Assembly (NCBI GenBank): GCA_947178475.1
Contig: CAMWYM010000023.1
Coordinates: 1 to 33,993 of the forward strand
Length of the DNA: 33,993 nucleotides
Reading direction: 5' to 3'
Origin: an uncultured Clostridium sp.
GTDB taxonomy: Bacteria; Bacillota; Clostridia; Lachnospirales; Lachnospiraceae
Made by a program: the position numbers and the translations under genes
Notes under the pieces: generated by a model
Told to the model about the DNA's origin: nothing
What the model saw: the letters and a program-made list of their open reading frames with translations, nothing else
The model's database searches: none
Part shown: positions 7,232-20,201 of the stretch, piece by piece
Layout of the letters: every line of letters starts with the position of its first letter
Position numbering within the stretch: position 1 is the stretch's first letter

Positions 7232-8617
7232 TTACGGCGACTGCTCAGAGGATTCTGATATCTCCTCGGTGTCGTCCGAACTGGAAAATTCGTATATCTC
7301 CAGTTGTGTGTCCGGATTAAAATATTCATATACGGTTTTGGACAATGACTGAATGTTGGAAATAGAACTTCCACAGCCGGTACTCATGATGCAGAGAATA
7401 TATACGCCCTTTGGTGAGTATACAATAGCTACATCGTGCTGTACCTCGTCCGTATCTCCTGTTTTGTTTGCACATCGTGTTCCTTCCGGCAATCCTGCTG
7501 GTATTTTATTTACATGACTTTGCTGAAGAAGCAGGTCTAGAAATTTCTGTGAGGCTTCGGGACTCACACATTGTCCCTTATAAATGCGCTCCAATAGTAA
7601 TCCACAATCGATAACGCTGGTATAATTTCTTCCGGCAGAGGAAGGCGCTTTGTATCTGGTAGGGACCAAAATAGAGGTGATTGTGGTATCACTGTAGTGG
7701 TTGGTATCAATATATTCCTGAATAACGCCACGCCCGGTGACATGATAGTGGTCAGGCGCACAGTTCATCACCATTAGGTTAAAGGCATCATTATCGCTTA
7801 CGGATATCATTTCCTGCATCAGACGGTCAATGTTTTCTGTATCTTCTAAGGTTCCCTTGTCGATTAAATCATATGCACAGGCGGCACAAAACAGTTTGAT
7901 CAGACTGGCTGAAAAGAACTGCATATTGTTGATAACCATATATTCGTTAGAATTGATATCCTTTACATAGACAGACCATGAACCGGTATAGCCGTCCAGC
8001 ATGCTTTGGAGCTCGTCTTGCAAATCGGTAAGCCCTTCCCTGCTGGTCTCAAGACTCACTGTATCATCTCGTATTCCGTTTATATCCACGTATCCACCAT
8101 CGGGTGTAATCGTGTCCTTCAAAAGGTAACCGTCTTCACCGACATATCGGTTCTCAATCCACTGATTGGAGGCCATGATGCCGTCTGTGTTGAAATAGTA
8201 TTGGTGACCCTCCAATGCACACCAGCCTGTGACCATGACTCCGTCCTCATCAAAGTAGTAAATGGCATCATTAATTTCATACCAGCCGCTGAAACGATTT
8301 TCATTATCCGGATAGTAATAAGTCTTGTTGTCGATTACAGAAAAACCGGTTGCCGGGTCGCGACCGGAAATGATTTCATTTTCGGTAGTGGCCTCAGTAG
8401 TGGGTTCTTTGTCTGTTTCCTGTGCAGGAAAGAGGATGGACAGAAGCAAAATCAAAAGCACACAAATAAATGAAGCAATGACAACTATTTTTGTGTTAAT
8501 CTTGGATAGGTCAGGGTATCCGATGTTTTCGGGTATATCACCCTGGTTATTTATATGTTGAGCCTTCTGTTGGTTAGAACTCTTTTTTGGCGATATATGT
8601 TTTCTTCCTTTGGACAT
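7232..8617 (-). CDS. Membrane-anchored class A beta-lactamase-fold protein with cell-wall-binding repeats
   Basis: Has 461 residues in three parts: a cytoplasmic tail and one TM segment (about 44-64); repeats of the choline/cell-wall-binding type (about 99-165, with GWYEINDAIYYFDEDGVMVTG and GHQYYFNTDGIMA); and a serine-hydrolase domain of the class A beta-lactamase fold from about 195. The catalytic triplet is present: S238-LI-K241, S274-D-N276 and K385-TG. I see no clear omega-loop ExxxN, so it may not deacylate beta-lactams efficiently. The C-terminus is an acidic Ser-rich tail. The active domain should face the outside of the cell. It lies 15 nt after the aminotransferase, so is co-transcribed. 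Its physiological substrate is not known. Confidence 0.85.
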   Translation of the reverse strand: MSKGRKHISPKKSSNQQKAQHINNQGDIPENIGYPDLSKINTKIVVIASFICVLLILLLSILFPAQETDKEPTTEATTENEIISGRDPATGFSVIDNKTYYYPDNENRFSGWYEINDAIYYFDEDGVMVTGWCALEGHQYYFNTDGIMASNQWIENRYVGEDGYLLKDTITPDGGYVDINGIRDDTVSLETSREGLTDLQDELQSMLDGYTGSWSVYVKDINSNEYMVINNMQFFSASLIKLFCAACAYDLIDKGTLEDTENIDRLMQEMISVSDNDAFNLMVMNCAPDHYHVTGRGVIQEYIDTNHYSDTTITSILVPTRYKAPSSAGRNYTSVIDCGLLLERIYKGQCVSPEASQKFLDLLLQQSHVNKIPAGLPEGTRCANKTGDTDEVQHDVAIVYSPKGVYILCIMSTGCGSSISNIQSLSKTVYEYFNPDTQLEIYEFSSSDDTEEISESSEQSP

Positions 8618-8632: not shown

Positions 8633-9724
8633 CTATACAATTTCCAATATAGTGTTTACTACAGTATCATTCTGCTCCGGTTTTAAGAAGCAGAACCGAA
8701 TGTATCTGTCACCCAGACCGTTATAGTCCGTACAATCCCGAATCATAAGTCCCCTTTTAATACAGTAATCAAACACGTCGGCTGCGGTCTGATCTTCCTT
8801 TAGAAGTTTAATCAATACAAAGTTTGCTTCCGGCTTAAATACCTTGATGGTCTTGCGGCTGGAAAGAGCGGAGAAAATAAGATTACGCTCTGTCTGAATC
8901 AGGCTTCTGGTGAGATTGATATAGTGCTCGTCCTCAAACATGACTCTGGCAACAGAAGCGTAGGAATTGATATTCCATGGAATCCGGCTGCTGGCTGTAG
9001 CATCTAAAAAAGTTTTGCTGCTGGTGACTGCATAGCCAAGACGAAGTCCGGGAGCTGCAAAAAATTTGGACACACCCCGCAATACAATCAGGTTATCATA
9101 TTTTTTGGTGAGGGAAACAGAAGAAATCAAATCAACGTCCCGCACAAATTCTACATAGGTTTCATCTACCATGACGCAGATATTAAGCTGCTGGCAGTGC
9201 TGTAAAATGGTATCCATCTGAGCCCGGGTAATCACCTTGCTGGTGGGATTGTTCGGGTTACAGATAACCAGCATATCAATGGACTCGTCCAGTGCCTTTA
9301 CAAACATATCCACATCTATTTCAAAATCATCCAGATTTTTCAGCATATAGACCTGAACGTCACTTCCTGCCAAACGTGCGGCATTACCGTATTCGGAATA
9401 GGCAGGCTCAATCACCATAGTCTTCTTCGGTGCTATGGTTTCAATGGCAAGCCGGATTAATTCTGAAGTACCGTTTCCGAGAACCAACTGCCAGGGCTCT
9501 GCACCGCAGTATCCGGCAATTGAATTGCAGAGTGCAGTGTAATTTCTGTCCGGATAGGAAGTGATAGCTTCTATGTTCTTTAACAGAGCCTCCTTTGCCA
9601 GAGAGGAGATACCCAGAGGATTGACGTTTGAGCCATAGGGAACGATGGATTTTTTATCAATATGGTATTTGTGGGCAATGGTTTCAAGGTCACTGCCGTG
9701 GAATGATTCCTGAATATTACTCAT
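8633..9724 (-). CDS. PLP-dependent class I/II aminotransferase (HisC/CobD-like)
   Basis: A fold-type I PLP enzyme of 363 residues. Visible are the substrate-binding YGSNVNPLG near the N-terminus, GNGTSELI, the CNPNNPTS motif, the DETYVEF Asp that holds the pyridine nitrogen, the Schiff-base Lys in VSKFFAAPGLRLGY, and RFCFL near the C-terminus. The family includes histidinol-phosphate aminotransferase and threonine-phosphate decarboxylase (CobD); no his or cob gene is nearby, so the substrate is open. The ATG at 9724 was chosen over an in-frame TTG at 9757 because AAAGAAGG lies 8 nt before the ATG. A near-consensus promoter lies upstream (9800-9828). Confidence 0.85.
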   Translation of the reverse strand: MSNIQESFHGSDLETIAHKYHIDKKSIVPYGSNVNPLGISSLAKEALLKNIEAITSYPDRNYTALCNSIAGYCGAEPWQLVLGNGTSELIRLAIETIAPKKTMVIEPAYSEYGNAARLAGSDVQVYMLKNLDDFEIDVDMFVKALDESIDMLVICNPNNPTSKVITRAQMDTILQHCQQLNICVMVDETYVEFVRDVDLISSVSLTKKYDNLIVLRGVSKFFAAPGLRLGYAVTSSKTFLDATASSRIPWNINSYASVARVMFEDEHYINLTRSLIQTERNLIFSALSSRKTIKVFKPEANFVLIKLLKEDQTAADVFDYCIKRGLMIRDCTDYNGLGDRYIRFCFLKPEQNDTVVNTILEIV

Positions 9725-9751
9725 AAATGCAACCTTCTTTCTATATTTATC

Positions 9752-9780
9752 TTTCAATATGTGAAAAAATTTGATATAAT
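9752..9780 (+). promoter_or_regulatory. Candidate promoter of the large plus-strand operon
   Basis: A perfect TATAAT (9775-9780) lies 17 nt after a weak -35 hexamer, TTTCAA (9752-9757), and 68 nt before the ATG of the 1190-residue protein. It is the only good -10 in this divergent intergenic region on the plus strand. Confidence 0.5.
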
Positions 9781-9848: not shown

Positions 9849-12800
9849 ATGAAGAGCAAGGTGGAACAATATGCCAAGGGGGATTTTTATGTAGAATACC
9901 CTCAGGTCAAACTTTCAAAAAACTATTTACAATTAAAAATCGAGGCTGGCAGCGTCTATACGGGAACTATTGATGTACGTTCGGAAAATGATGTTCCAAT
10001 GAAAATGATGGTATATGACGATGCCTATTTACTATGTTTTAATGACCATAGCCTGATTGGAAGAAAAGGAGTCATTGAATTTACTTTTGATGCCTCTAAG
10101 CGGGTGAGAGGCAGTATTTATGACGGGAAAATCCGTGTGATCGGAAATGGGATAGAAAGAGAGATACCATATAATATTGAGGTGGTAGCACCGTTTATTG
10201 ATGCTGGCGGCGTAGCTTTAGAGGATTTGATGAAATTTTCTGCTTTGGCTGAGGAGAACTGGGACAGAGCATTGGGAATATTTTATTCCGAGGAATTTAC
10301 AAGGACATTGCTGGGGGATCAGGCAGAGTATATTGAGGCGTACCGCACGTTAAAGGATTCACTGGATAAGAATCAGGCGCTGGAGGAATTTCTGGTTTAT
10401 ATCCACAAGAAACGGGCGATGACATTGCAGGTGGAGCATGACCGCTTTGAATATAATTTTCCTAAGATGAAGGAAGACCACCAGCTTGTACTTCGGAAGA
10501 ATACGTGGGGATATTGCAGTATGTCAGTAAAGACGGATTGCAGCTTTATTACTCTGCACCAGGACAGGATATGCAGTATGGATTTCTCAGGGGATGTCTG
10601 TTCTCTGGGCTATAGTCTGCACCCGGAAATGATGGATGAGACGGAGGCGGCAAGCGGACGGATTATTTTAGAGAATACCTATCAGAGAATTGCAGTGAAT
10701 ATCTTTATCCGCAAGCCGGAGGAGACGAGCCGCATTTTGGTGCATAAGGATCATGACCGAAGACTGCGCAAGCTTGAGGTTGCGGCATTGATTCATAATT
10801 ATCTGGATTATCGTATCGGATTACTGCCGCTTAATCAGTTTATTGAAAAGACAAGAGAGTCACTGAATGCGTTGGTGGAATTTGAGCCGGATACGGGAGT
10901 ATATAAATTGGGATTACTGCATATGAGCATTCTGGCGGGAAAAGAGGAGAATGTCAGGCAGGAGATTGTCCGTATGGAGGCGGATATGGATAAAGCGATG
11001 GAGGGTCCGCGCGAGCGCTGCTATTTTCTCTATTTAAAGGCGTTACTCTCCAAAGATACAAGACAGATTGTAAAAACCTGTGAAAAGATTGAAGAGGCAC
11101 TTGCCAGTGAGCAGGATAAGCTATTCTATTTCTGGCTGTTGATTTATTTGGATGAGCGCTATCAAAAGGATAAGAACTGGCTGTTTTCACAGGTGGAGGG
11201 GCTTTATGACGGCGGTTATGAGAGTCCGGTGCTGGCATTGGAAATATGCGATTTGATTAATCAGGAACCGTTGCTGCTCAAAAAGCTTACAGCGGTAGAG
11301 CTGGCAGCGCTCCGCTTTGGGTTGAAAAATCAATATCTCAGCAAGGAGGCAGAAGAGGAGTTCCTGCAGCTGGCAGCAAGGGAAAAAACCTTCCGTCACA
11401 GTGTGTTCTCACTGCTGGCAATGATTTATGAAAGAGATAAGCGGGGAGATGTTATCCGGATTATATGTGGATTACTGATTCGTGGAGCAAGATTAGAACA
11501 CCGTTACCACAAATATTACTTAGATGGAGTGCAGCGGGGCTACAAAATTGTGGGGATACAGGAGAATTATCTGCGGAGTATGGACCATAGCCAGTATGCG
11601 CTGATTCCGGATTCTGTATTGCGGTATTTTAATTATAAGAGTATTCTTTCCGATAATGAGTATGCGTATTTGTATGCCAATGTTATTGTCAATAGAAGAC
11701 AGTATCTGGGACAGTATGAGGAATATCTTCCTAATATAGAAGCATTTATGCAGGGGCAGATCGTAAAGGGAAACATGAGTGATGACCTAAGTGTCATCTA
11801 TAGTGAGTTTTTGCGACCGCAGGCGGTGAATTCGCAGTTTGCGCCCAGCCTGGTAAATGTGATATTTAAACGAAAATTGACTGTGGCAAATGAGAACATT
11901 GTGGCAGTGGTAATATCACATAAGGAACTGGAAGAGGAGAATATAGTGCCGGTGGTAAACCATGTGGCCTATGTGGATATGGTGACGGAATCGGCTGTTG
12001 TATCATTGGTGGACAGAGAGCAGAATCGGTTTATCAGTACCATTCCTTATAAGCTTCAGAAGCTGGTGGACGAATCAGAATATATGGGGATTTTGGAGCA
12101 GCATGCAGCAGATGATTATCGTTATGCGCTCTATCAGTACAGTGCGTTGGAGGCCTATAATGCTGTCGGAGCGAGAGAGGTCAATATAGCAAGAAATACC
12201 CTGTCGTTTAAGGAGATAAGTGAAGAAACCAGACAGCAGGCGATTTTCGGGATTGTCCGGTATTACCATATGCATATGGATATGGATATTCTGGGGGGAT
12301 ATCTGCGCCGGGTGAACATGGAGTATGTCGCTCCGGAGAATGCTGTTGAGTACATAGATTATCTGTTGGAGTGCGGACTTTATGAAAAGGGTTATGAAGC
12401 CATTAAACGGTTTGGCTATCAGGGCGTTTCGACGGAACAGCTGATAAAGATGGTGGAGACAGTGAAAGAGTTTTCCCAGTATGCCGGGGAAGAGACACTG
12501 GTCGCTGTTGCCGCACATTTATATCGCATGGGACAGGAGACGCCGGAAATACTCTCCTACCTTGTGGATACCTATCAGAGCGGCGTTGGGGAGATGCTTA
12601 AGCTTTGGAAGCGTGCCAACGGCAGGCTGGCAAGACTGGATATGCTGGAAGAGAATATTATTTGTGAGACTCTTTATACGGAACAGTGGCATAAGGAGGT
12701 ATTTTCCGTATTCGATTCTTTTGTGGAGAAGAGAAAACGGGGAATGGTGATTAAGGCGTTTTTCAAGCGGGCGGCTTTTGCCTATCTGGTGGAGGATACC

Positions 12801-13421
12801 GAGCAGCCGGAATCCTTTTTTGAAGCCCTCTATCGACAGATGATTTTGGAGGAGTTGGATGATGATATGTGCATTGCAGCTATGCTGCTCTATTTCAGCC
12901 GCAAGGCAAAGCTGGAAAAGGATGAGACGCTCTGGGTTAAGAAGAAAACCGAATATTTTGTGAAGAGAGGAATACTCCTGCCGTTCTTTAGGAAATTTAA
13001 ACGCTATGTAAAGCTGCCGAAGGATTTGTTTTTGATGACCTATGTGGTGACAAAGGATAAGGCAGGAAAACAGATTTCTTTCCGGTATGGGATCCAGTCT
13101 GGTGTGGAGAAGCCGGAGTGCAGCCGGGAGGCAAGGATGATGGAGGTTCTTCCGGGATATTATATGAAAGAATTTGTGCTGTTTCATGGGGAGAATCTCC
13201 TCTATGAAATGCCGGAGGGACATGCCGGACATACCCGTGTCTATGAGAGTGAGGGAATGAAGGCAAAGGGAGAAACAGAGGAATATGAGAACCGTTTTGA
13301 GATGCTGAATTCGATGCTGTTAAATCAGGAAATCGGAGAAAATCAGATGCTGGTAGATAAGATTGACAAATATCTGAAGCTGGCGGCAGTGGTGGAAGAG
13401 AATCTGGAATTGATGGAGTAA
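9849..13421 (+). CDS. Giant DUF5717-type protein: N-terminal beta domains plus long helical-repeat body
   Basis: Has 1190 residues, with no signal peptide or TM segment, so probably cytoplasmic. I recognise the overall type as DUF5717, seen mainly in Lachnospiraceae; no function is established that I know of. Two beta-rich segments (about 10-110, with the sandwich-like EREIPYNIEVVAP, and about 200-300) come first. A long run of amphipathic helices, TPR/solenoid-like (about 310-1010), follows, then a short beta-rich region (about 1040-1120) and a helical tail. An AAGG site precedes the ATG. It is the first gene of the operon and lies 15 nt before the Hsp70-like gene, which argues for a joint complex. 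A scaffold role is inference. Confidence 0.75.
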   Translation: MKSKVEQYAKGDFYVEYPQVKLSKNYLQLKIEAGSVYTGTIDVRSENDVPMKMMVYDDAYLLCFNDHSLIGRKGVIEFTFDASKRVRGSIYDGKIRVIGNGIEREIPYNIEVVAPFIDAGGVALEDLMKFSALAEENWDRALGIFYSEEFTRTLLGDQAEYIEAYRTLKDSLDKNQALEEFLVYIHKKRAMTLQVEHDRFEYNFPKMKEDHQLVLRKNTWGYCSMSVKTDCSFITLHQDRICSMDFSGDVCSLGYSLHPEMMDETEAASGRIILENTYQRIAVNIFIRKPEETSRILVHKDHDRRLRKLEVAALIHNYLDYRIGLLPLNQFIEKTRESLNALVEFEPDTGVYKLGLLHMSILAGKEENVRQEIVRMEADMDKAMEGPRERCYFLYLKALLSKDTRQIVKTCEKIEEALASEQDKLFYFWLLIYLDERYQKDKNWLFSQVEGLYDGGYESPVLALEICDLINQEPLLLKKLTAVELAALRFGLKNQYLSKEAEEEFLQLAAREKTFRHSVFSLLAMIYERDKRGDVIRIICGLLIRGARLEHRYHKYYLDGVQRGYKIVGIQENYLRSMDHSQYALIPDSVLRYFNYKSILSDNEYAYLYANVIVNRRQYLGQYEEYLPNIEAFMQGQIVKGNMSDDLSVIYSEFLRPQAVNSQFAPSLVNVIFKRKLTVANENIVAVVISHKELEEENIVPVVNHVAYVDMVTESAVVSLVDREQNRFISTIPYKLQKLVDESEYMGILEQHAADDYRYALYQYSALEAYNAVGAREVNIARNTLSFKEISEETRQQAIFGIVRYYHMHMDMDILGGYLRRVNMEYVAPENAVEYIDYLLECGLYEKGYEAIKRFGYQGVSTEQLIKMVETVKEFSQYAGEETLVAVAAHLYRMGQETPEILSYLVDTYQSGVGEMLKLWKRANGRLARLDMLEENIICETLYTEQWHKEVFSVFDSFVEKRKRGMVIKAFFKRAAFAYLVEDTEQPESFFEALYRQMILEELDDDMCIAAMLLYFSRKAKLEKDETLWVKKKTEYFVKRGILLPFFRKFKRYVKLPKDLFLMTYVVTKDKAGKQISFRYGIQSGVEKPECSREARMMEVLPGYYMKEFVLFHGENLLYEMPEGHAGHTRVYESEGMKAKGETEEYENRFEMLNSMLLNQEIGENQMLVDKIDKYLKLAAVVEENLELME

Positions 13422-13436
13422 CAGAAAGGACAGTTC

Positions 13437-14693
13437 ATGAAAGACATTTATTTAGGGATTGATTTGTGTAAAAAGAATATACAGATGAGCTTCTGGCGAG
13501 AGGATAAGCAGGAGCCCAAGACGATTTGCCAGCAGAATAATACGGAGACATATCAGCTTCCCAATGTGATGTTTTATTCCCATAAGGATAAAAAGTGGTA
13601 TGTGGGGAATGATGTCAGTGCAGTTCGGTTTAGTGAAGACGGAGTTATTGTTGAGGATGTGGTGGAGCGGATTGATTCGGACATACGGGTGATGGTAGAT
13701 GACACGGAGTATTCCCGTGAGATGCTGTTGCTGATCTTGTTAAAAACACATGTGGAGGAATTCCTGAACCGTTCAAAGGAGTATCGTCTGATGGGGCTTA
13801 CCGTTTCACTGGAAAGCTATCATCCGAAGGTTTACCAGGTACTGAGACAGCTTAAGGAGGAACTGAAACTGTCAGATGATGCGTTTTATGTTATGAGTCA
13901 TGAGAATGCATTTTTTCAGTATGTTATGCATCAGAATGAAAAGCTTCATACAAACAGTGTTGCAATGTTTGAGTATAGTCAGGAGGGAATGGAGTATTAT
14001 CGGATTGACCAGAAACGGCAGGGGACTACCAGAATATTCTATTTGAGCCGTCAGGATATGAAAAAGCAGATGCCTTACGGTATGCTTTTTGAGAGCATAG
14101 AGGAGCTGGATCGCTTTTTTGCAGGTATTGCAAAGGCAAAAATGAGGGAAACTTATATTACGACCGTTTATCTTACCGGACCGGGCTTTAATGATAACTG
14201 GCTTGATCAGGCAACCCGGGTGCTTTGTGACGGACGAAGAGTATTCATGGGTCAGAATATATATACTCAGGGTGCATGCTTTCATGCAAGGCACGGAGCC
14301 TATGAGGCGGACAAGGATTGTGTTTTGTGTACGGAGGGGAGTATGACCTTTGATATTGGTGTTAGTATAGGTGATATGGAGGGAAGGAAAGTGTTTCACC
14401 CTATTGCCATTGGCGGACGGGAATGGTATAACATGCGGGGCAGTGTGAATGTATTCCTTGATGATACCAACAGGGTAGATATGATATATCGCGATAAGGT
14501 CACCAAGGAGGTGCAAGAGGAAATTATTGAGATACACGGATTGCCGAAGCGACCACCGAAAACAACTAAGCTGTCGTTGGAGGTAGAGCTTTATAATGAG
14601 AAAACGGGAGCGATTGTAATCCGGGATGTGGGCTTTGGAAAGATTTATCCTACGACGAATAAGATATACCGAAAGGAATTTTCGGTGGGATGA
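13437..14693 (+). CDS. DUF5716-type Hsp70/actin-fold protein
   Basis: Has 418 residues and is laid out like an Hsp70. The phosphate-1-like strand is YLGIDLCKKN (5-14). A connect-1-like helix and HENAFFQYV (155-163) correspond to the NEPTAAA region. YLTGPGFNDNW (245-255) resembles the adenosine motif, and GQNIYTQGACFHARHG (272-287) resembles the closing helix. A beta-sandwich-like C-terminal domain follows (about 300-418). The phosphate-2 loop, normally DLGGGT, is FEYSQEGM here (178-185), so ATP hydrolysis is doubtful. I recognise it as DUF5716-like, a frequent neighbour of DUF5717. GAAAGGA precedes the ATG. It probably works with its neighbours on a helical scaffold; the role is unknown. Confidence 0.72.
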   Translation: MKDIYLGIDLCKKNIQMSFWREDKQEPKTICQQNNTETYQLPNVMFYSHKDKKWYVGNDVSAVRFSEDGVIVEDVVERIDSDIRVMVDDTEYSREMLLLILLKTHVEEFLNRSKEYRLMGLTVSLESYHPKVYQVLRQLKEELKLSDDAFYVMSHENAFFQYVMHQNEKLHTNSVAMFEYSQEGMEYYRIDQKRQGTTRIFYLSRQDMKKQMPYGMLFESIEELDRFFAGIAKAKMRETYITTVYLTGPGFNDNWLDQATRVLCDGRRVFMGQNIYTQGACFHARHGAYEADKDCVLCTEGSMTFDIGVSIGDMEGRKVFHPIAIGGREWYNMRGSVNVFLDDTNRVDMIYRDKVTKEVQEEIIEIHGLPKRPPKTTKLSLEVELYNEKTGAIVIRDVGFGKIYPTTNKIYRKEFSVG

Positions 14694-14747
14694 TATTGCA
14701 GGGGACGGAAGGAATTTCCGGTTAGTATATGAGAAAGAGGTAATTAG

Positions 14748-15581
14748 ATGGGACGAGTGATATTGTGTGAAACGCAGCCGGCGGAAACGTCGTATATATT
14801 TCCGAATACTAAGATAGAGGTGTTTTCCTATGAGGAGCTCTGCTTTTATATCTATAATAATATTGCGTTGATTTCCGAGGAATATATGGATGTTCATATG
14901 TTTAACTGGATTGAGAACGGACTGAAGCTCCCAATGCTTGCCGGACAGCTTCGGGCTGTTAAGGAGAAGGATAGTACGGATTTGACCGATTTGCTGACAA
15001 CGATTCTCACGTATAAGGAATTTTACACCGTTTCCGAGGTGAAGGAGTTTATCTATCAGATGGAGAGAATGAAAGGACTTACACCGCCGCAGTTTCGGAA
15101 AATGCAGGCAGACGGATTTTTGCGCTATCGCAAATATCTGAAGGCAGCATCTATCTATGATGAACTTTTAGAGCAATATCCGGACATGCAGAATGATAAT
15201 CTTCTAGGCGCTATCTATCATAATAAGGCAGTGGCTCTTGCTCATAATTTTGAGCTGAAGGAGGCCATGGAGGCCTATCTCAAAGCTTATGAGCTTACGG
15301 GAAATCCTCGCTCTATTTTTGAGTATCTGCTGCTGATGGCAACACTGCGGGAGCGGGAGGAAGTGGCAGTGCTGGCCAAGTTTCACGGAGTGGAGGATAT
15401 GCTGGGAGAGATATATGAGGCCATTGATGCTGCCGTGACCGATGTGACGGGGTCGCCGATCTATCATCGGTTAGAAAAGGCGATGTATCATTATCAAAAG
15501 AACTATCTGGCAGATTTTAACAGGAAAATGGATACAGTGATTGAGCATTTGAAGTCTGAATTCCGGGAGCAGACAGCATAA
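14748..15581 (+). CDS. TPR-like helical protein of the DUF5717/5716 cluster
   Basis: Has 277 residues, soluble, no signal. The N-terminal part (1-60) is mixed alpha/beta (VILCETQPAETSYIFPNTKIEVFSYEELCFYI has to be read as separate strands and helix). From about 115 there are TPR-like helix pairs: ADGFLRYRKYLKAASIYDEL, then AIYHNKAVALAHNFELKEAM with AYLKAYELTG. TPRs mediate protein-protein contacts and often dock Hsp70-type partners, which fits the gene directly upstream. GAGG lies before the ATG. The gene follows a 54-nt gap in the same run. No function is known to me. Confidence 0.65.
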   Translation: MGRVILCETQPAETSYIFPNTKIEVFSYEELCFYIYNNIALISEEYMDVHMFNWIENGLKLPMLAGQLRAVKEKDSTDLTDLLTTILTYKEFYTVSEVKEFIYQMERMKGLTPPQFRKMQADGFLRYRKYLKAASIYDELLEQYPDMQNDNLLGAIYHNKAVALAHNFELKEAMEAYLKAYELTGNPRSIFEYLLLMATLREREEVAVLAKFHGVEDMLGEIYEAIDAAVTDVTGSPIYHRLEKAMYHYQKNYLADFNRKMDTVIEHLKSEFREQTA

Positions 15582-15625
15582 GCATTATGAGCAACAGCAG
15601 GTCAAAGGACAGGAGATTGTGATAC

Positions 15626-16804
15626 ATGGGTTTGTTGAATACGGTAAAGGATATCTTTACGAAAACAGAGGTGACAGAGGAGAAATTTGAATACGAAAGC
15701 ATTGATAGTGTTCTGGCGCGGGGGGAGCGCAGAGAGGGACAGGGCATGGAGGCGGATGTCGCCTTTAAATGTGACCAGATTGTAGATGCTACCTATCAGA
15801 TGGAGGATTTGCGTGTAGAGTATGAGATGGTAACCTCTTACTTTAACGATATTCAAACCATTGAGGGACTGTCGCAGGAAGTACGTGCGGAAATCATGGG
15901 GATAGCCAAAAAGATTGCAATGCTCGAAACGGAGACCTCAGCATTTTTTCATTCCGATGACCGGATAAGTGATGAGAATTTCCGTATGATGCAGGGTATG
16001 GAGGGTGAGATTTCAGAGGTGTTTGGCCGGCTTAAGGATTTAGAGGATATGGACATGAAGATTAAGCGGGATATGAAACACTTAGAGGCGGAAAAGAGTT
16101 CTCAGGAATACCTGCAGGGGGATATTGAGGAACAGCAGGCAAAGCTTCGGATGTTTATGACGATATTTGGAACTATTTCTTTGCTTCTTGTGATAACTCT
16201 GGCTGTTGTGGCAGCACTGACGGACACTAATTTATTGATTCCAATCTTACTGATTTTGCTGCTGGTAGTGGGAATGGCCGCCTTGTCAGTTGTGACCTTT
16301 CATAATCTGTCTTATAGCTTTAAGCTTTCAGAGATGAAAGAAAATCGGGCAATAAACCTGATGAATAAAGTAAAGATCAAGTATATTAATAATACTTCTA
16401 CGTTGGAGTATCTTTATGACAAATATGGTATTAAGAGCCTGAGGGAATTGGAATACCTCCATGATCAGTATTTAATTATGATTGATGAGGTTAGAAAATA
16501 TCAGAAGGTTTCAGGAGACCTGCGGGAGTTTTCAGAGGCTCTCTCAAAGCTGCTGTTTTCCTGTGGAGTGAAGGATCCGGATATATGGATAAAGCAGTCA
16601 TTGGCCTTGATTGACAACCGGGAAATGGTGGAGGTGAAGCACTCTCTGAATGTGAGGCGGCAGAAGCTACGGGAGCAGATTGCCTATAATGAGAAGCTGC
16701 GGTTAAACGGTCTTAGGGATATACGGGAAATGTTGAAGACCAATCCGGAGCTCAGAGATCAGGTGAAACGGGAGCTGGAGACTTACCATATAAATGTCCA
16801 GTGA
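15626..16804 (+). CDS. Coiled-coil protein with central TM hairpin
   Basis: Has 392 residues. Charged helical/coiled-coil regions (about 45-165 and 235-390) flank two adjacent TM segments (about 173-196 and 202-222) joined by a short DTNLLIP turn. Both long arms therefore lie on the same side, most likely the cytoplasm. No catalytic motif is seen. An AGGAGA ribosome site lies 10 nt before the ATG. It is the only membrane protein of the first five genes in this run and may anchor the soluble scaffold proteins; that is inference. I do not recognise a named family. Confidence 0.6.
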   Translation: MGLLNTVKDIFTKTEVTEEKFEYESIDSVLARGERREGQGMEADVAFKCDQIVDATYQMEDLRVEYEMVTSYFNDIQTIEGLSQEVRAEIMGIAKKIAMLETETSAFFHSDDRISDENFRMMQGMEGEISEVFGRLKDLEDMDMKIKRDMKHLEAEKSSQEYLQGDIEEQQAKLRMFMTIFGTISLLLVITLAVVAALTDTNLLIPILLILLLVVGMAALSVVTFHNLSYSFKLSEMKENRAINLMNKVKIKYINNTSTLEYLYDKYGIKSLRELEYLHDQYLIMIDEVRKYQKVSGDLREFSEALSKLLFSCGVKDPDIWIKQSLALIDNREMVEVKHSLNVRRQKLREQIAYNEKLRLNGLRDIREMLKTNPELRDQVKRELETYHINVQ

Positions 16805-17918: not shown

Positions 17919-20201
17919 ATGAAAAGATTTAAGAAAATTACTAGTGTGCTGCTGGCGGCAGCAATGACCTTGAGTCTTACAGCTTGTGGGACTGAGCAAG
18001 AGACGACGGAGGAGACGACAGAGGAGATTGTCAGTGAGGTGACAGAAGAGGCGACAACGGAGGAACCGGTGACGGGAAACCAGATTGAGAATGGTGATTT
18101 TTCTAATGGTACCGACAAGTTTAATGTCTATACTAACGGTGGAAACTGTAACATGAATGTGAATGCAGACGGGGAGCTTCAGGTGGATATATCCGAGTCT
18201 GGGGATGTGGCACATGGTGTACAGATTTACTATGACGGATTCGAGATGACACAGGGTGTTGTATATGAATTTTCCTTTGATGTACACGCTACCATTGACA
18301 GACCGGTGGAGTGGAGAGTACAGATAAATGGAGGTGATTATCATGCTTATGCCGGTGAGATAATCGATGTGACAGAAGAGGTGCAGCATATTTCCTCACA
18401 GTTTACGATGGAGGAGGCATCTGACCCGGCGCCGCGTTTATGTTTTAATATGGGATGTGTAGATGCTTTACAGGATGGGAGTATAACCTCGGAAAGCATG
18501 GGAACGCACTCTGTTATGTTGGATAATCTTTCTCTGGAGCAGGTGGATGATTCGGGAGCAGTGGCAGATGCCGAGGCTGTAGAGGTACCGAAGGCAAAGG
18601 TGAACCAGGTTGGTTATAAAAAGGATGATACAAAGCTTGTCGTGTTTTCCGATTTAGAAGAGGGTGATAATAGCTTTACTGTGGTAGACGTAGAAAGCGG
18701 TGAATCCGTTTATGAGGGTAAAATGACGGAACAGGTGAATAATGCGGCGGCCAGTGAGATGAATTGCTCCGGGGATTTTACTGCGGTGAAGACGGCAGGA
18801 ACTTATAAAATTGTAACTGGAAAAGGGGAGGAATCATATCCCTTTGTCATTGGTGATAATGTGTATGATGAAACCTTTAAAAGTATAGTTAAAATGTTGT
18901 ATTTGCAGCGCTGTGGGGTGGAACTTGACAAATCTTTTGCCGGTGATTTTTCACATCCGCTGTGTCATGGGGAGGAGGCAGTTATCTATGGCACGAATAC
19001 CAGAATAGATGTCAGTGGTGGCTGGCATGATGCAGGTGACTATGGAAGATATGTTGTGTCCGGTGCAAAAGCAGTGGCGGACCTTTTACTGGCATATGAG
19101 AAGAATCCTGAAGCTTTTGGCGATGACTGCGGTATTCCGGAAAGCGGGGACGGTATCAACGATGCATTGCAGGAGGCAAAATATGAGTTGGACTGGATGC
19201 TGAAAATGCAGGACAATAGTGGTGGTGTTTATCATAAGGTTACCTGTAAGGTATTTCCGGAAACGGTGATGCCAGAGGAGGAAACAGATGAGCTGGTAGT
19301 AGCACCTCTTTCTAAGACAGCGACGGCAGATTTTGCGGCTGTGATGGCCATGGCGGGGAGAATTTTTGGCGAGGAAAGCAATAGTGAATATAAGGATTAC
19401 GGGAACACTTGTCTAGAGGCGGCGAAGAAGGCCTGGACATATTATGAGGAACATAAAGACGAAAGAGGTTTTGTGAATCCAAATGATATTGTGACTGGCG
19501 AATATGGAGATGGTAACAGCAAGGATGAGTACTTCTGGGCGGCTGCAGAGCTTTACAAGGCGACTGAGGAGAGCCAATATAAGGAGAAGATGGCGGAGGC
19601 GCTTGAAGGGATAGAGAATATTGGAGGGCTCGGATGGGCAGATGTGGCTGCTTATGGTGCTTATGCGGCTTTGACAACACCAATTCTGATGACTGACAGC
19701 AGCAATCTGTTAAAGGATATTGAAAATGCATTTTTTGCTGCTGCAGAAAATGCGCTGCAGATAAGTAAGGAAAATGGATATATGGTAAGCCGGGAGGGCG
19801 TTTATGAATGGGGTTCTAACATGGGAATCGCAAACAACGGAATGCTGCTCTGTCTTGCGAATGAAATCCGGCAAAATGAGGAATATATAACCTGTGCGAA
19901 GAATCATTTGAATTATCTCTTTGGTATGAATGCAACAGGATACTGTTTTGTTACGGAAACAGGAACCTTGAGTCCGAAGCATCCGCACCACAGACCGTCG
20001 CAGGCATTGGGAAAATGTATGCCGGGAATGTTGGTGGGCGGACCGGATAGTGCCTTGGAGGACCCTTATGCAAAGGCTGTGCTATCGGATACTCCGGCGG
20101 CAAAATGCTATGCGGATAATGAGCAGAGCTATTCCTGCAATGAAGTGACGATTTACTGGAATTCGCCGCTTATCTATCTGCTGGTGGCAACACAGGATTA
20201 A
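17919..20201 (+). CDS. GH9 cellulase/endoglucanase lipoprotein
   Basis: Has 760 residues. The signal peptide has lipobox L20-T-A-C23, so it should be lipid-anchored on the outer face. An acidic Thr/Glu-rich spacer follows (about 25-52), then a beta-sandwich resembling carbohydrate-binding modules of the CBM4/9 type (about 55-208), an Ig-like CelD_N domain (about 224-312, starting KVNQVGYKKDD) and the GH9 catalytic barrel (about 315-758). The active-site segments are intact: HDAGDYGRY with D371 and D374, the HPHHRPS histidine motif, and the acid/base Glu742 in NEVTIYWNSPL. Expected activity is on beta-1,4-glucan or related beta-glucans. AGGAGG lies before the ATG. It sits oddly between RNase H and repair nuclease genes. 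Confidence 0.93.
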   Translation: MKRFKKITSVLLAAAMTLSLTACGTEQETTEETTEEIVSEVTEEATTEEPVTGNQIENGDFSNGTDKFNVYTNGGNCNMNVNADGELQVDISESGDVAHGVQIYYDGFEMTQGVVYEFSFDVHATIDRPVEWRVQINGGDYHAYAGEIIDVTEEVQHISSQFTMEEASDPAPRLCFNMGCVDALQDGSITSESMGTHSVMLDNLSLEQVDDSGAVADAEAVEVPKAKVNQVGYKKDDTKLVVFSDLEEGDNSFTVVDVESGESVYEGKMTEQVNNAAASEMNCSGDFTAVKTAGTYKIVTGKGEESYPFVIGDNVYDETFKSIVKMLYLQRCGVELDKSFAGDFSHPLCHGEEAVIYGTNTRIDVSGGWHDAGDYGRYVVSGAKAVADLLLAYEKNPEAFGDDCGIPESGDGINDALQEAKYELDWMLKMQDNSGGVYHKVTCKVFPETVMPEEETDELVVAPLSKTATADFAAVMAMAGRIFGEESNSEYKDYGNTCLEAAKKAWTYYEEHKDERGFVNPNDIVTGEYGDGNSKDEYFWAAAELYKATEESQYKEKMAEALEGIENIGGLGWADVAAYGAYAALTTPILMTDSSNLLKDIENAFFAAAENALQISKENGYMVSREGVYEWGSNMGIANNGMLLCLANEIRQNEEYITCAKNHLNYLFGMNATGYCFVTETGTLSPKHPHHRPSQALGKCMPGMLVGGPDSALEDPYAKAVLSDTPAAKCYADNEQSYSCNEVTIYWNSPLIYLLVATQD

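Follow-up and report, generated by a model that had tools for sequence, protein, structure and literature searches.

The DUF5717–DUF5716 genes of Lachnospiraceae, a possible remnant of a dedicated multi-Hsp70/GrpE operon

What could be the function of a compact bacterial operon whose first two genes belong to families, DUF5717 and DUF5716, that are listed in Pfam only as of unknown function? The question is raised by a locus on contig CAMWYM010000023.1 (positions 1–33,993; assembly GCA_947178475.1) of an uncultured Clostridium sp., a member of the Lachnospiraceae in the order Lachnospirales; the whole of this 33,993-nucleotide stretch is hereafter called the window. It carries four plus-strand open reading frames (ORFs), designated A to D and separated by gaps of 15, 54 and 44 nt, with the lengths and spacing described in an original prediction made from the sequence alone. 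That prediction had assigned A to the DUF5717 type and B to the DUF5716 type, and both proteins are clear members of these Pfam families (814.9, 192.4 and 298.8 bits, against gathering cut-offs of 25, 25 and 34.7). It had also stated that no role was known for either family, in agreement with our search of the open-access literature, which returned no paper on the operon, none with DUF5717 and one with DUF5716, whose title places it off the subject. Sequence comparison, as reported here, identifies DUF5716 as a degenerate form of Hsp70; DUF5717 proves to be the large protein encoded by an Hsp70/GrpE operon.

What the original prediction overlooked is that these genes look like a cut-down version of a far longer Hsp70/GrpE operon. 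Gene order was read in 40 fetched loci of about 15–20 kb and in the window (41 loci), with a gene caller that tends to drop overlapping genes. A long form is found in 21 of the 41, from related families, in the order A1–A2 (or a fusion of the two), B1, a GrpE-domain coiled-coil protein (GrpE-coil), B2, B3, B4 and C; gene A of the window is the equivalent of A1 plus A2, which are separate genes in most related-family loci. A, B1, GrpE-coil and B2 are present in all 21 long loci, as is B3 (17 by gene calling; those of L034, L037, L046 and L047 by tblastn, uninterrupted and with K70, E171 and the phosphate motifs), while B4 is present in 19, C in 18 and D in five. C was not seen in L031, L041 and L042, nor B4 in L031 and L042; the L041 stretch ends inside B4, and L031 and L042 show other genes at the position of the missing ones. 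The short form occupies the other 20 loci, 19 from Lachnospiraceae together with L021, and has A, B and C in all 20 and D in 14. L021 comes from a genome (G179) labelled as another family, groups with the Lachnospiraceae locus L012, and may be a misplaced contig.

When the proteins of L030, L034 and L027 were compared with Pfam, the HSP70 family scored 262.9 bits for B1, 215.3 for B3 and 308.8 for B4, the last being a fusion of Hsp70 with a VWA domain at its end; B2 matched DUF5716_C and, more weakly, HSP70, and the GrpE domain at the end of the long coiled-coil protein scored 42.5 and 46.1 bits (cut-off, 25.8). The operon Hsp70s of related families are lidless, and every long locus encodes, along with a GrpE of its own, two or three Hsp70s whose catalytic motifs are intact. 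Judged by its sequences, the related-family operon combines lidless Hsp70s, a vWA fusion, a GrpE coil, a degenerate Hsp70, a putative DUF5717 scaffold and a TPR protein; in Lachnospiraceae only the scaffold, the TPR-like protein and a pseudo-Hsp70 deprived of the stretch equivalent to subdomain IIB are left. In B4 (L029–L048), the vWA domain occupies the place of the Hsp70 alpha lid and has a DTTGS motif, presumably a metal site.

The operon GrpE domain exceeds 25.8 bits in all 21 long-operon genomes, in an alignment of 21 rows, and each of these genomes also holds a second, ordinary GrpE of about 200 residues; the four Lachnospiraceae genomes tested for GrpE have the ordinary form only. In a sample of 246 genomes of the order, 33 of them Lachnospiraceae, the long GrpE-coil gene (E < 1e-10) was found in 85 of the 90 genomes of other families with A or B, in none of the 33 Lachnospiraceae and in no genome of the 123 that have neither A nor B. 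In six Lachnospiraceae genomes the GrpE-coil profile matched weakly (E 1e-5 or worse), and the matching frames were as long as an ordinary GrpE. Outside the order, in a phylum-wide sample of 348 genomes (few of which come from the order), only frames of ordinary GrpE length matched the profile, in 34 genomes.

Gene B had been described as a degenerate Hsp70, and this description holds. The protein, assigned by Pfam to DUF5716_C, has an actin-type nucleotide domain followed by a beta substrate domain, as in Hsp70; the substrate-domain-like beta part is unlike the layout of MreB or FtsA. None of the 20 reduced B2 rows aligned, window B included, keeps an equivalent of K70, E171 or T199, the catalytic residues of an active Hsp70 ATPase (one row is that of L021). 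The IIB stretch measures 56–74 residues in reduced B2 versus 139 in the DnaK of the same genome as the window, and the part that follows the adenosine motif 172–184 residues versus 309, so that IIB is largely missing and the alpha lid is absent. A tree built from the B-labelled proteins of at least 370 residues (98 of 100 B matches) and two Hsp70s of the window's own genome groups B with the degenerate B2 of the long operon; the B4 of L027 is split into two frames, and its longer piece alone was entered, unmended. Elsewhere, the window's genome (90% complete) encodes DnaK and an HscC-like Hsp70 and no further long Hsp70.

VIA matches of the first beta-sandwich of A include HYDIN/CEP192 and PapD-type domains as well as various further beta-sandwich proteins, and the first solenoid of A gave weak Foldseek matches to Ctr9, Ski3, IFT-A and Naa15, to which we give no weight in assigning function. 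A sequence-based search of solved structures returned no match for the profiles of A or B. For C, which the original prediction took for a TPR-like partner, the TPR matches of the window protein lie below the Pfam cut-offs, and those of its L030 ortholog are strong, well above them; we regard C as a probable TPR-like protein.

The operon named in the original prediction is conserved. DUF5717 is present in 121 and DUF5716 in 117 of the 246 order genomes, the two together in 115, DUF5717 alone in six, DUF5716 alone in two (eight genomes with the genes apart) and neither in 123. Outside Lachnospiraceae the DUF5716 count rests partly on a paralog, since B3, an Hsp70 of the long operon, is matched by this profile as well (47.7 bits in L030). 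All 33 Lachnospiraceae genomes have both families, with domains free of inner stops, and invariant residues are found across 71 A and 75 B sequences. In the phylum sample, DUF5717 exceeded the cut-off in four of 348 genomes, all Lachnospiraceae, with one more match below it. Among the best 80 of at least 505 relatives (the titled loci), A, B, C and D are contiguous and in this order in at least 66, with median gaps of 17, 14.5 and 10 nt; the other 14 show ABC (seven), ABD (two), AB (two), A, AD and BCD (one each). The figure of 66 is a lower bound, since some of the 14 loci reach contig ends and the gene caller drops overlapping genes. No plasmid match was obtained. Four records labelled 'Bacteriophage sp.' matched, the best (L165; MT835486.1) being filed as an UNVERIFIED phage; besides A-B-C-D it holds a RarA-like ATPase gene and the beginning of valS, a content that makes it probably a mislabelled bacterial chromosome.

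What, then, do A, B and C do? We put at about even the chance that they are left over from a dedicated multi-Hsp70 system, in a reduced form that works without nucleotide. Their function would most likely be, by analogy with Ssz1 and Hsp110, that of an ATP-independent client-binding or assembly scaffold. B would dock on the solenoid of A, and its beta substrate domain would constitutively hold a peptide of A, of C or of a client, as Ssz1 does with Zuo1; C may recruit clients or general chaperones, and the A-B-C complex could hold or assemble specific cytosolic clients without an ATP cycle. An excerpt of a review describes GrpE as entering the Hsp70 cleft and rotating subdomain IIB (PMC4753570). 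GrpE thus acts on IIB, and the loss of both the operon GrpE and the IIB stretch fits one chain of events. In its fullest form, a proposal that could as readily fail as hold, the order has a second, private Hsp70 machine that Lachnospiraceae turned into an ATP-independent pseudo-chaperone, kept by every sampled member, the GrpE gene and the lobe that GrpE operates having been lost together.

Several observations weigh against this reading. Having the fold of an Hsp70 is no proof of acting as a chaperone. A J-domain protein is encoded elsewhere in all 21 long-operon genomes, but a J-domain gene stands at the long operon in none of them, and the candidate J-domain partner was rejected; the classical Hsp70 cycle is thus not complete at that locus. 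The window has no CIRCE (controlling inverted repeat of chaperone expression) element, even with up to three mismatches allowed. The Hsp70 tree was built quickly, is rooted at its midpoint and drew warnings of long branches. Finally, the beta domains of A also match unrelated beta-sandwich proteins, and A resembles known folds only weakly (best Foldseek E 5e-7; TM-score by query length at most 0.16 among the matches listed).

Gene D is better regarded as a neighbour of the other three. The original prediction proposed a membrane-tethered scaffold or chaperone-like complex, with the transmembrane (TM) hairpin of D as its anchor; the chaperone-like scaffold is plausible, but D as a dedicated anchor was rejected. 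D is found in 27 of the 33 Lachnospiraceae genomes (the six without it all have A and B), in 74 of the 90 genomes from other families that have A or B, and in 45 of the 123 with neither, where one match is weak (7e-4); it is thus commoner with A and B than without them. The original prediction could have failed if the four genes occurred mostly apart; this is not so for A, B and C. Twenty D loci outside Lachnospiraceae were picked by hand, 16 from genomes without A and B and four from long-operon genomes with D elsewhere. In 12 of them, the next ORF or the one after it is a valS-like gene on the same strand, and in one more such a gene lies seven ORFs off; it is called valS-like after the equivalent genes of L047 and L165, which are named valine--tRNA ligase. 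A CobD/HisC-like aminotransferase adjoins D or stands close to it in seven of the 20, and adjoins A, or lies one gene away, in 16 of the 41 operon loci. The simplest reading is an ancestral order of aminotransferase, D and valS, the Hsp70 operon standing between the aminotransferase and D. This distribution and neighbourhood weaken the membrane-anchor idea, although co-option of D is conceivable wherever it stands beside C (66 or more of the 80 titled loci). No Pfam family matched D over its cut-off, and the search of solved structures by sequence gave coiled-coil and chance-level matches (best 7e-5, keratin). D and its relatives (L144–L163) make up a separate family of membrane coiled-coil proteins that spans the order. 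Upstream of A1 in L029, L031, L032, L033, L038, L039, L041 and L048 stands a membrane protein other than D (cluster c3), part of which is long and helical; it is possibly a substitute anchor.

Other explanations of A-B-C have to be weighed against a remnant chaperone. B could be a structural subunit, its actin fold decorating or capping a rigid A solenoid in a cytoskeleton-like scaffold that positions membrane or envelope machinery without folding clients, tethered by D or, in some long operons, by the unrelated membrane protein upstream of A. The loss of the ATPase residues from B would suit such a role, as would the TM hairpin of D and its place beside C, and the best matches of the A beta domains include ASH/PapD-type domains of ciliary central-pair and centrosomal proteins; central-pair chains (7sqc, 7n6g) match the Hsp70 fold of B, as though an Hsp70 formed part of the structure in that assembly. 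We nevertheless regard a structural scaffold as rather unlikely: B has a substrate-domain-like beta part instead of an MreB/FtsA layout, D is not dedicated, and the GrpE and the intact Hsp70 ATPase motifs of related operons point to cycling. Relaxed selection on a decaying leftover of the long operon would account for the loss of GrpE and the other Hsp70s and for the fast evolution of B2 (long branches), but this explanation, already disfavoured, is scarcely credible given the intact domains in all 33 Lachnospiraceae genomes, the invariant residues and the conserved gene order.

Two further alternatives borrow from described systems. A regulated conflict or immunity system of the GAP1-N2 GTPase-centric type would have a similarly unusual parts list (Hsp70, GrpE, beta-sandwich and TPR-like repeats, vWA), to judge from an excerpt of its description (PMC7159879). 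We consider it improbable: GAP1-M is absent from 28 of 29 genomes, with the single match (G184) on another contig than its DUF5717, no GTPase was found among the long-operon proteins scanned (no genome-wide search for one was made), and A and B, present in all 33 Lachnospiraceae genomes, are unlike patchy defence islands. Candidate status as a GAP1 GTPase system was rejected on the GAP1-M result, and that as a defence island on the lack of any PADLOC match at E 0.01 among the four window proteins, the long-operon proteins not having been scanned. Very improbable, in our view, is a translation-linked chaperone of nascent chains, a bacterial counterpart of the ribosome-associated Ssz1–Zuotin complex. 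The valS genes near the locus might suggest one, but that neighbourhood goes with D even where A–C are missing, the long locus lacks a J-domain gene and no ribosome-binding element was recognised.

Other links to proteostasis lie around the locus. An htpG-like gene (matching an L016 protein named htpG) is found upstream of A, on the same strand and one to seven genes off, in 21 loci (the sequence on the upstream side of A exceeds 4 kb in 61), and an exact CIRCE precedes it in 16 of the 80 titled loci (L056, L057, L063, L064, L081, L088, L094, L097, L105, L110, L111, L116, L119, L122, L129 and L131). In L153 and L154, from one family, two genes separate D from an hrcA-type gene with an exact CIRCE; in L153 this gene is named hrcA, and dnaK is named further on. 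These links are lineage-specific and only suggestive. The parts of the window locus are listed in Table 1. Beyond them, a minus-strand protein at 7232–8617 combines choline-binding-type repeats and a beta-lactamase-like domain with a hydrophobic stretch in its N-terminal part, and a GH9 enzyme with CBM_4_9 and cellulase Ig-like domains lies downstream of the operon (17919–20201); a related gene (cluster c24) also trails the operon at a distance in L015, a locus of the same genus.

Table 1. Genes and protein regions at the window locus (aa, amino acids; AF2, AlphaFold2).
Feature	Positions	Strand	Remarks
CobD/HisC-like aminotransferase	8633..9757	-	divergent; flank of the locus, outside the system
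Gene A	9849..13421	+	DUF5717_N + DUF5717, 1190 aa, scaffold-like
A, first beta-sandwich (aa 18-124), ASH/PapD-like	9900..10220	+	AF2 model and VIA matches
A, second beta-sandwich (aa 191-290)	10419..10718	+	AF2 model and VIA matches
A, first helical-repeat solenoid (aa 291-672), TPR-superhelix-like	10719..11864	+	AF2 model; weak Foldseek matches
A, middle beta region (aa 673-740)	11865..12068	+	AF2 model
A, second solenoid (aa 741-1056)	12069..13016	+	AF2 model
A, C-terminal beta region and helices (aa 1057-1190)	13017..13418	+	AF2 model
Gene B	13437..14693	+	DUF5716, 418 aa; a pseudo-Hsp70 that falls with long-operon B2 in the tree
B, Hsp70 nucleotide-domain-like part (aa 1-290)	13437..14306	+	K70/E171/T199 equivalents lost; about 70 residues short at IIB
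B, Hsp70 substrate-domain beta-sandwich-like part (aa 291-418), no alpha lid	14307..14690	+	
Gene C	14748..15581	+	TPR-like protein, 277 aa
Gene D	15626..16804	+	coiled coil with central TM hairpin, 392 aa; neighbour, not a dedicated component
D, hydrophobic hairpin (aa 172-229)	16139..16312	+	

Among published parts lists, the closest is that of the HSP70/GrpE theme in the GAP1-N2 GTPase-centric systems. As far as the excerpt goes, this second theme of the GAP1-N2 loci joins HSP70, GrpE and an FNIII-TPR or FNIII-DnaJ protein, a subset has a second HSP70 without a peptide-binding domain, and the loci occur mainly in Firmicutes and Actinobacteria (PMC7159879). HSP70, GrpE and TPR are all present at the long operon, as neighbours of the beta-sandwich protein A; the sandwiches of A match ASH/PapD-type and other beta domains. 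The long operon differs in its tandem Hsp70 paralogs, in the vWA domain that replaces a lid, in the GrpE that ends a long coiled coil and in having no J domain at the locus, and the short form has no ATPase left. With GAP1-M absent from 28 of the 29 genomes, membership in the GAP1-N2 systems fails; the analogy stands.

Among single proteins, B is best compared with Ssz1, which an excerpt describes as lidless, binding ATP without hydrolysing it and holding a motif of its partner in the substrate domain (PMC7083937), and with Hsp110/Sse1. In contrast to these, B is bacterial, additionally lacks the IIB stretch and the catalytic residues, and has an ASH/TPR-like scaffold for a neighbour where the Ssz1–Zuotin complex has a J-protein. 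The operon of related families shares Hsp70 and GrpE domains with the DnaK–DnaJ–GrpE core, but is a second set beside the ordinary GrpE and DnaJ, with lidless Hsp70s and no J gene at the locus. In the portion of the review seen, eubacterial genomes are said to encode one Hsp70 exchange factor only, GrpE (PMC4753570); a family of gut bacteria and its relatives carry an additional Hsp70/GrpE set. Its Hsp70s form a natural series, from intact to lost ATPase motifs, and so offer an evolutionary test of an Hsp70 without nucleotide cycling, along with a concrete, testable function for two DUF families present in all sampled Lachnospiraceae genomes.

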